Positions 26,855-29,603 of a stretch of 49,832 bases of DNA are shown here, piece after piece (the stretch's first letter is position 1; each line of letters opens with the position of its first letter). This DNA is from Chroococcidiopsidaceae cyanobacterium CP_BM_ER_R8_30 (lineage in GTDB: Bacteria > Cyanobacteriota > Cyanobacteriia > Cyanobacteriales > Chroococcidiopsidaceae), in NCBI GenBank assembly GCA_019244235.1, contig JAFASY010000226.1, forward strand, positions 1-49,832, read 5' to 3'. The notes under the pieces are model-generated. The model did no database searches and was not told where the DNA came from. It saw only the letters and a program-made list of their open reading frames with translations. Both the position numbers and the translations under genes were made by a program.

Positions 26855-29473
26855 TTAATGTAGAATTTCTACATAGCCTTCTGTTCCATGCACGCGAAGT
26901 CGTTGCCCATCTTTTATCAGTTTGGTAGCATTTTCTACTCCGACAACGGCTGGTAAGCCATATTCACGTGCGATAACTGCCCCATGGGTCATCAGTCCAC
27001 CAACTTCAGTAACTAAGCCTTTTATGGATACAAATAATGGTGTCCAACTAGGGTCAGTGAAGGAGGTGACTAATATATCTCCATCTTCTAAATCAGCATC
27101 TTCAATCTTTAAGATGACACGTGCCCGCCCCTCTGTAACTCCGGAAGAAACAGGCAGACCTGCAATCGCTCCCACTGGGAGATTTTCTCGTTTGTGCCCA
27201 CCTGTAATGATTTCACCATCAGACGTGATCACACGTGGGGGAATTAGCTTTTCATATAATTTGTACTCGTCTTTTCGTTTGCTGATGAGCTGGTAATCCA
27301 GTTTATTTGTGCGTATGACTTCGCAAAGTTCTTCAAAAGTGAGGTAGTAGATATCTTCCTTTTCATGAATAACGCCCGCTTGTACGAGTTGTTCAGCTTC
27401 TTTCAGTAAAGCCTGCTTATAAACGAAGTAGCGATTAACTATGCCGTATTTTGGATATTCACAATAACCAATGAAATTCCAGATCAGGTCGATCATTCGT
27501 TTTGTTTCATTGGCCTTTTGTTCACCATCCGGTAATTGCTTCAATCGATCTAATAACTCTTGTTCTTTTTTCAAAGCTTCCTGCCGCCCTTGCTCAAATT
27601 TCCGCTTGCTGGCATTAGGTTCAAAGTTTTTGATGTTACTGAGAATCATGGGGACAAGTGTAGTTGGTTTTTCACTCCAACGAGTTTTAGTTATATCAAT
27701 TTCTCCGACACATCGCATTCCGTATTTGTTGAGAAAAGCATAGATAGCATCTTGGGTTTGCTGTCCACCATCCAATTTAACCAGTTCATTCAAGAAGTTA
27801 TCACCCTTTGCCTGTTGTAAATACTCAATTACTTCCGGGTAAGGGCGAATCACGTCTGCGACATCCAATAGCGCCAGACCCATCTCTGAAGTAATATTGT
27901 TTGATACAGATTGAGAAAGCGTGTCTGCCACGTTTTTCTCACCTAACCACTCCTGCATTTTTTCATTGATCCAGGATGAAGCATTCATAGCAGTCATAAT
28001 CACACCAAAACTTTGTGGATCAGCTAAACTCTTCTTCAATTGCTGTATGTCCTCCAAAATAAAATCAAATAACTTCAGTCTCGATTTGGCTTGAATGTTT
28101 TGTTTTAACTTGTCTATCGATGTTTGGCTACGCTTAATCAAATCACCAACGATTGCCGAACCGTATTCGTTTAGTGTTTGAAAATCTGCAAGTGACGGAT
28201 CTTTATTCCTTTTGCCAGAACTCTGTTCTTGCTTATTATCTGGTAATGATTTTATAAAATCTCCCCGCTCTAAGACGGTCATCAATGTGTCTTTTATGAG
28301 TGGATCGGATTTACCTAAAACGTTGACTACAATGTCTCTTTTAACAGGTGAAGCCAGATGATCTGTAACATCAACAAACAACCTTCCGCCAGCTTTATAC
28401 ATTGGTCGGGCAGCTGTTAACTGCCATATAGATATTCCCAAAGGCTTCATCGGATCTGTCATCATTTGTTGATGAGCGACAGATATATACACATGATTTT
28501 CCTGGTCATTTGCTTCAGGGATGGGGTACAAAGTAGTGATCGGACGAGTCTGGACAATATAAAATGTATTATCAACCAAACACCATTCGATGTCTTGGGG
28601 ACAGCCGAAATGTTCTTCGATCTTTCTGCCCACTCGCTCAAGCTGTAAAATCTGCTCATCCTTCAGCGCTTGCCTATTCTGCCGCTCAGGCTCGATCTCC
28701 TGTTCTTTCGTGCCGCCTTCTTTTAAGGCATAAATAGCCGCCTTCTTGATGGATATCTTCTTATCGATAATCTTGCCGTTACGCACTTTATAGTTATCCG
28801 CATTTACGAGACCGGAGACCAAAGCCTCACCAAGTCCGAAGCCCGCATCAATGGATAACACTTTCCTGTTAGAAGTGACGGGATCAGCAGTAAACAAAAT
28901 TCCCGCCGCTTGCGGGAAAACCATCTTCTGAATAACTACCGACAGGTGAACGTTACAGTGGTCGAAGCCATTTTGAAGGCGGTAGATTACCGCACGATCT
29001 GTAAACAGGGAAGCCCAACATTTGCTGATACACTTTAGGATTGCCTCCCTTCCGATAATGTTCAAATACGTATCCTGCTGACCTGCAAAGGAGGTCGTTG
29101 GTAAATCCTCAGCTGTTGCGCTGGATCGTACTGCATAGGCATTTTTTTCTCCAAGCCTGGTGAGAAGGCTGGCGATCTCTTCATGAATGTTTTCAGGGAT
29201 GGCTATCCCTTCGATGACCCTGCGAATCTCAGCGCTAAGTTCACTGATTTTATTCCGGTCTTCCACCTTTAGAAGCGATAACTGATCCAGTAATTCGTTA
29301 ATCGACGGCGTTTCCCCAATGATTCTTTTAAAGGCTGCAGTAGAAATACAAAAGCCATTCGGTACGTGGATTCCTTCAATCCTGGTAAGTTCTCCCAGGT
29401 TTGCGCCTTTACCCCCAACAACTGTGACTTTTGTTTTATCAATCTCTTGAAAACAAAGCACAAATGAACTCAT
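26855..29473 (-). CDS. rph: rifampicin phosphotransferase
   Basis: Rph transfers the beta-phosphate of ATP to rifamycins, forming inactive phospho-rifamycin, AMP and phosphate, through a swivelling His domain. From ATG 29473 (after AAGGGGAAAC) the protein is 872 residues, the family length. It has the ATP-grasp domain (about 1-320: [57 protein letters not shown]), the rifamycin-binding domain (about 327-750), and the C-terminal His domain with [18 protein letters not shown]; the catalytic His is about residue 830. The sequence resembles Listeria/Bacillus enzymes closely, which is unusual for a cyanobacterium. It begins inside a truncated VOC gene of an ECF42-type operon. PEP synthase shares domains but has a different central region. 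Confidence 0.93.
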
Positions 29474-29603
29474 CCGTTTCCCCTTTGGCAATCATTTCTG
29501 TAATGGTCATCTTCTCAAGAATTTTGCCACCAAAGCACTGCTCGTAAAACTTAAACGCAGTTTCGCATTCACCAGTAAAAAAGAGATATGGATTCGATTG
29601 CAT
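29439..29603 (-). pseudogene. truncated VOC-superfamily (PhnB-like) gene
   Basis: ATG 29603, with AGGGAG upstream, begins MQSNPYLFFTGECETAFKFY then EQCFGGKILEKM, the first strand-helix of PhnB/glyoxalase-like VOC proteins (normally about 140 residues). After about 34 codons the homology ends and the frame runs through the rph leader, stopping at 29439, 34 bp inside rph. VOC genes are regular members of ECF42/DGPF clusters, so this is the cluster's last gene, cut by the arrival of rph. Its translation crosses the rph start, so coupling is possible. Confidence 0.75.

Follow-up and report, generated by a model that had tools for sequence, protein, structure and literature searches.

The window analysed here, a stretch of 49,832 bases, is the whole of one contig (C85) of a 5.54-Mb cyanobacterial assembly that is 97.2% complete and 1.6% contaminated. 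On its minus strand, reading leftward, lie a sigma factor gene, a YCII-domain gene, a SnoaL-like gene, a second YCII-domain gene, the beginning of a VOC gene (VOC′) and rph, a gene of the rifampicin phosphotransferase family. The sigma gene, at 31429-32673, is of the ECF42 type, its product having Pfam matches to Sigma70_r2, Sigma70_r4_2 and DUF6596, followed by a C-terminal TPR match (TPR_2) that at 26.7 bits falls just below the cut-off of 27. Six other genomes of the family hold relatives, and a strong match is found in 7 of 19 family genomes, its own included. As expected for an ECF42 locus, a YCII gene adjoins the sigma gene; there are two YCII genes in all. YCII gene 1 is at 30860-31219 (Pfam PF03795), the SnoaL-like gene at 30266-30718 (Pfam SnoaL_3) and YCII gene 2, also recognised by Pfam, at 29738-30169.

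The layout of this operon is matched in another genome, G280, where sigma, YCII, SnoaL and YCII genes and an intact VOC gene of 136 codons follow one another in the same order and direction. The identities to G280 are 81% for the sigma factor, 76% for YCII gene 1, 69% for SnoaL, 82.5% for YCII gene 2 (88.8% to its homologue in a further genome, G476) and 76% over the first 33 codons of VOC. An earlier note on this DNA took a VOC gene to be the expected last member of the SnoaL-YCII-VOC operon. When IMG/VR was scanned by exact matching for relatives of YCII gene 2, one locus came up.

Two ECF42-type promoter motifs, direct repeats of each other, stand in the operon on the minus strand. The first (TGTCGATT...CGAACGAC, 31384-31410) precedes YCII gene 1, and the second (TGTCGATTTCGCAACCCTCCGTTCGAC, 30788-30814) precedes the SnoaL-like gene. 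Both match the strict pattern TGTCGATT-N15-CGAC, which occurs elsewhere in the assembly at one palindromic site only, on contig C82, where it counts on both strands; the reversed control pattern has no match in the assembly. In G280, motifs stand at both equivalent places, the one corresponding to 31384-31410 being the identical variant. The motif, mostly as TGTCGATTTGAGC...CGTTCGACT, lies ahead of the first YCII gene in each of six further ECF42 loci read from this family, and it is also found ahead of ECF42-operon genes in G081, G187 and G280. Both promoters fit the TGTCG...CGWC type of ECF42 targets, and the ECF42 promoters of S. meliloti have a TGTCG −35-like element (PMC6180224). With the near-uniqueness of the motif in the assembly and its recurrence in relatives, the predicted promoter at 30788-30814 is well supported, and SnoaL, YCII gene 2, VOC′ and rph all read leftward from it, as the earlier note had said.

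The window operon is like the ECF42/YCII (DGPF) operons described for S. venezuelae (Sven_0747), P. putida (ECF-10) and S. meliloti (RpoE10) in the C-terminal TPR extension of the sigma factor, the YCII neighbours, the TGTCG −35-like element and the glyoxalase-like targets (PMC8999054, PMC6180224). It is unlike them in ending with an antibiotic-modifying enzyme, of which the text available from these two sources makes no mention. P. putida ECF-10 is an earlier case of an ECF42 sigma factor connected with antibiotic stress (PMC8999054, PMC6180224). The open-access literature searched yielded no description of rph controlled by an ECF sigma factor and no match for a cyanobacterial ECF sigma factor with YCII, and the sole co-mention of rifampin phosphotransferase and cyanobacteria was in a review of plastic waste. 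A paper that brings up rifampin phosphotransferase alongside integrons gives the name of the enzyme just in a table and a reference. To our knowledge, little has been established about the targets and signals of ECF42 sigma factors.

The rph gene (26855-29473, minus strand) is an open frame of 872 codons. The product scores 1490.9 bits against the NCBIfam model RIF_Ptrans_rph for rifamycin-inactivating phosphotransferases (NF041857, cut-off 999) and additionally exceeds the cut-offs of three PRK06241 models named phosphoenolpyruvate synthase. It aligns with the Listeria enzyme (PDB 5FBS) over residues 1 to 871. No other such gene is present in the genome, the runner-up places being taken by 26-43% matches to other PEP-utilising enzymes. 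The ORF as mechanically called begins at a TTG at 29491; we place the start at the ATG at 29473, which is preceded by a Shine-Dalgarno-like AAAGGGG at 29486-29480.

The VOC′ frame (29439-29603, minus strand) has 54 codons, of which the first 33-36 are homologous to intact VOC proteins of the YjdN-like glyoxalase type; the 3′ three quarters of the gene have been lost. VOC homology, and with it the DNA similarity to G280, ends near 29505, and the junction between VOC′ and the rph leader is placed at about 29505/29504. The window sequence from about 29504 onward is similar to the leaders that precede other cyanobacterial rph genes (ATTACC..A.GTATGAATTGCCAAAGGAGG); therefore, rph carried in its own ribosome-binding site. 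This leader remnant, at 29474-29504 on the minus strand, includes the AAAGGGG; it was recognised by alignment by eye, with the 12 nucleotides 29493-29504 assigned to it by inference. The missing part of VOC does not lie behind rph, where two intact VOC proteins found no match; the rest of the gene is gone. The observation that rph starts in a truncated VOC gene that ends an ECF42 operon holds as a whole. The VOC′ frame overlaps the rph start by 35 nt, and rph begins at 29473 and not at 29603.

We propose, with a probability of about 65%, that rph is the last gene of the ECF42 operon, joined to VOC′ and expressed by read-through from the ECF42 promoter. Speaking against it, the promoter at 30788-30814 lies 1.3 kb from rph, with intergenic gaps of 97 and 135 nt on the way; in its favour, a scan of the minus strand from 30788 to 29473 revealed no terminator-like site. 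An Rfam scan of 24000-36000 gave no match to E 1. From this arrangement, we infer read-through transcription from the ECF42 promoter into rph, that is, co-transcription. The succession of events would be as follows. A deletion or illegitimate recombination would have joined codon 33 of VOC to the leader of an rph gene that was mobile, carried a ribosome-binding site of its own and was followed by an attC-like site. The native rph upstream region, known from relatives, would have been lost at the fusion. The rph message would now arise by read-through from the ECF42 promoter, with translation coupled to the overlapping VOC′ frame, and the operon and rph would together have come to lie inside a non-autonomous transposon.

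Instead of being served by the operon, rph might have a constitutive promoter of its own inside VOC′ or the leader, the ECF42 operon being a mere neighbour. There is a weak sigma-70-like site (9 of 12) just ahead of rph, at 29518-29491, and 33 of the 36 distinct cyanobacterial rph loci discussed below have no ECF42-type motif in the upstream DNA examined, which indicates that rph is usable without one. Against this, the region around rph contains fewer sigma-70-like sites than its shuffles do (6 versus 8.0), so that the scan lends no support to a separate promoter, which, if directly upstream of rph and with no read-through, would in the earlier note's view have refuted its reading. The upstream frame extends past the rph start, and the linkage to ECF42-type operons recurs in G081 and G476. 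We regard an independent promoter as unlikely.

Recurrence was examined in 39 rows representing 36 distinct cyanobacterial rph loci, three genomes being present twice. An ECF42-type motif together with a close homologue of YCII gene 2 lies upstream on the same strand in 3 of the 36, namely the window, G081 and, more weakly, G476; in 4 of the 39 rows (three distinct loci: L026, L049 and L098/L112), less than 2 kb of upstream DNA is present and linkage could not be detected. In genome_contigs, the 80 best-matching rph loci show no ECF42, YCII or SnoaL homologue in their upstream DNA of at most 5 kb, a set that is too narrow in its flanks and does not include G081 or G476. Linkage to an ECF42 operon is the exception among rph loci, which weighs against the proposal.

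The genes of G081 run YCII-YCII-VOC-DUF1579-GST-VOC-RibD_C remnant-rph; three promoter motifs precede them, and the sigma gene is divergent. G476 has VOC-YCII-(small frames)-RibD_C-RibD_C-rph downstream of a single motif, and its contig stops short of a sigma gene. Between YCII and rph of G476, the operon strand has terminator-like and promoter-like sites, which weighs against read-through there; G081 has a single terminator-like site, within a VOC gene. Neither set is clearly above shuffles. A similar arrangement is thus present in at least one other cyanobacterium, G081, and probably, with G476, in two; the check that the earlier note had asked for, whether rph occupies this place in further cyanobacteria, succeeded to that extent. 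In G476 (L206, 2895-3443), the RibD_C stop and the rph start overlap as ATGA, forming a tightly coupled pair.

The RPH proteins of the window, G081 and G476 occupy three separate places in a 43-row tree, where starred branches force three changes, and 0% of 200 bootstrap trees are compatible with a single change. Therefore, either the linkage has more than one origin or it has been reshuffled. The window RPH groups with cyanobacterial copies. A quick 86-row tree places it in a starred 10-row set, the careful 43-row tree in none. Two rows with stops, L047 (2 stops) and L107 (11 stops), were excluded from the RPH trees.

The distribution of rph is patchy, with 10 of 291 genomes in a sample of the order and 10 of 388 in a sample of the class, the window genome being counted in both. 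The gene has a G+C content of 42.5% versus 51-55% for the operon genes. Its DNA is 86-88% identical to that of the four relatives compared (dS 0.36-0.46); the operon genes and their G280 counterparts have a dS of 0.8-1.6, the partner genomes differing from those of the rph comparison. That rph is a horizontally acquired gene in a cyanobacterium is supported, and with it the term “capture” that had been applied to it.

Directly behind rph, 18 nt from its stop and in the same orientation, is an attC-like site (26757-26836, minus strand). It was found with a covariance model, R1, built from 20 copies with the window excluded, and scores 26.4 bits (E 1.3e-5 in the window and 0.0014 in the genome). 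R1 rests chiefly on conserved sequence. In the 20-copy alignment, sliding the partner abolishes the stem pairing and covariation is modest, with 26 to 91 of 500 shuffles attaining the observed values; the window site is a shortened one, and its fold energy does not surpass that of shuffles (z 0.40 and 0.82). At E 0.1, R1 matches 9 of 22 cyanobacterial rph loci and 0 of 60 other rph loci. One copy of this element family, which was found beside rph, has matches in 50 of 195 genomes of the order. Three such sites form an array on contig C189 of the window genome (L163, G000:C189:1-6000, 1055-2771) around GST and isochorismatase genes; no integrase was seen there. A second site in the window (48158-48245, plus strand, 31.0 bits) lies just ahead of a GNAT-like frame (48243-48761). 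Cyanobacterial attC sites are already known (Ghaly 2021, PMC8352920).

The order attC-RibD_C-attC-rph occurs in six loci, including a conjugative plasmid of Aulosira laxa. On that plasmid, from strain NIES-50 (L217, AP018310.1 58975-75587), the array is near ParB-family and ParA-like genes.

Like an integron gene cassette, then, rph has an attC-like site directly behind it in the same direction, as in the C189 array. Unlike one, it has no 5′ cassette boundary and no integrase over the cut-off, and its site is shortened and may fold poorly. On its 5′ side, rph joins VOC′, and an unfiltered scan to E 5 found no attC there. The integrase model TIGR02249 has no match over the cut-off in the genome, and sub-cut-off matches occur here as in all 14 control genomes. 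Plain insertion of an integron cassette into VOC was set aside for want of a 5′ core site and of an integrase over the cut-off.

The operon and rph are bounded by a pair of 102-nt inverted repeats, at 26633-26734 (plus strand) and 33677-33778 (minus strand), which are identical at 87 of 102 positions. The sequence CTACA stands directly outside each repeat, at 26628-26632 and 33779-33783, as a 5-nt direct duplication, and is absent from both inner flanks. Since the duplication is on the outer sides only, the reading as two independent small repeats was discarded in favour of a single unit. This 7.1-kb unit contains a hexapeptide acetyltransferase gene (33054-33611, plus strand; Pfam Hexapep), the operon, rph and the attC-like site; for the acetyltransferase, no NCBIfam model exceeded its cut-off among the 25 matches listed. 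The unit is read as a non-autonomous transposon or mobile insertion cassette. It resembles such elements in having inverted repeats and a 5-nt duplication while ORFs and Pfam reveal no transposase-like frame within it. It is unlike them in having no second copy in the genome, in 60 relatives or in the plasmid collection; a scan of viral contigs with an exact 20-mer likewise found no copy. Taken together, the attC-like site, the transposon-like borders and the deletion-type junction indicate that the history is richer than one simple capture.

Like the Listeria RPH (PDB 5FBS/5FBT/5FBU; NF041857), the window enzyme is a full-length match with three domains. The equivalents of Listeria Lys22, Arg117, Thr136, Glu667 and His825 are present. 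Unlike the Listeria enzyme, it has a cysteine, Cys671, at the equivalent of Arg666, where all 95 other rows of a 96-row alignment have Arg. Six residues before Cys671, a second near-invariant Arg (94 of 95 other rows) is replaced by Trp. The ATP-grasp and swivel domains had been called intact, and so they are; the Arg-to-Cys change in the rifampicin-binding domain had been missed. In Listeria RPH, Arg666 and Glu667 are both essential for transfer to rifampicin, and Arg666Ala forms no phospho-rifampicin and abolishes inactivation while leaving the first half-reaction (PMC4844700). In the window, the residues for His phosphorylation (Lys22, Arg117, Thr136 and His825) are complete and the transfer pair Arg666/Glu667 is incomplete. 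The predicted enzyme should still phosphorylate its own His from ATP. Because the phosphate-holding Arg is Cys, transfer to rifampicin is doubtful; the window copy may be incapable of inactivating rifampicin, and resistance from it is doubtful. It follows that, of the suggestion that antibiotic inactivation is under an alternative sigma factor, the operon position and the promoter stand, whereas inactivation itself is in doubt.

Could rph be a decaying relic, in the operon by chance, with rifampicin transfer lost and expression irrelevant? The Cys and Trp replacements and the loss of the 3′ three quarters of VOC would fit, as would the rph of a relative in the same family (L107, G007:C2:478000-495000), whose frame reads with 11 stops, is likely a pseudogene and entered the residue comparison by its longest open piece only. 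Yet all 872 codons of the window gene are open, and rph is under purifying selection: its dN/dS against the four relatives is 0.19-0.24, inside the 0.16-0.25 of other pairs. Moreover, the window RPH departs from columns conserved at 97% or more at six positions, compared with 0-9 in the 59 other rows counted. Decay is, in our judgement, quite improbable.

An assembly chimera or contamination that joined a foreign rph to the operon, or a sequencing error at Cys671, is most improbable as an account of the locus: the low G+C of rph would suit a chimera, but the contig extends on both sides, rph groups with cyanobacterial copies, its attC-like site belongs to a family found in the window genome, and two junctions plus a target duplication would be needed at once. 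Contamination of the contig is unlikely because homologues of the operon occur in the same family and an attC array lies elsewhere in the same assembly. For Cys671 taken by itself, a sequencing error is possible.

If the proposal of read-through from the ECF42 promoter is true, an acquired resistance gene would have been rewired to a stress sigma factor through loss of its own promoter region. The layers would be dated in the order operon, rph with its attC-like site, fusion and transposon-like borders. With an enzyme of testable substrate as the last gene of such operons, ECF42 would gain a read-out, and the claim is open to a direct test in G081 and G476, whose RPH proteins retain the catalytic Arg. 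Cys671 also cautions that passing a curated resistance cut-off need not mean that a gene confers resistance. It is tempting to go further, quite tentatively, and to suggest that mobile detoxification genes (VOC, RibD_C, GST and rph), some of them with attC or on a conjugative plasmid, repeatedly land in the ECF42 operons of cyanobacteria and are expressed there, fused behind the conserved promoters. An alternative sigma factor would thereby gain control of an antibiotic-modifying enzyme without a resistance-specific regulator, and the window enzyme, having lost the transfer Arg, may have come to serve another substrate or role under ECF42 control.

A parallel in kind to the rph-VOC′ fusion is found in Nostoc sp. 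106C (L023), where the rph leader is joined to codon 16 of a RibD_C gene, which sister loci have in full; the sequence ATTGCC is common to the rph leader and the fusion point (4826-5010). In B. subtilis, pps/rph is induced by rifampicin via two convergent promoters (PMC12802891), unlike the window, where the native rph upstream region is gone. At another rph locus, L030, a promoter-like site upstream of rph (4915-4943) points away from the gene (1 site versus 2.2 in shuffles), which recalls the convergent promoters of the rifampicin alarm (PMC12802891). Upstream DNA of the L030 type is common to rph loci of Bacillota, Chloroflexota and several cyanobacteria. Finally, two plasmids of Trichormus variabilis (NC_007412.1 and NZ_CP047244.1) carry an internal stretch of rph from its middle (40% of the query at 80% identity), beneath which a “transposase family protein” is annotated.
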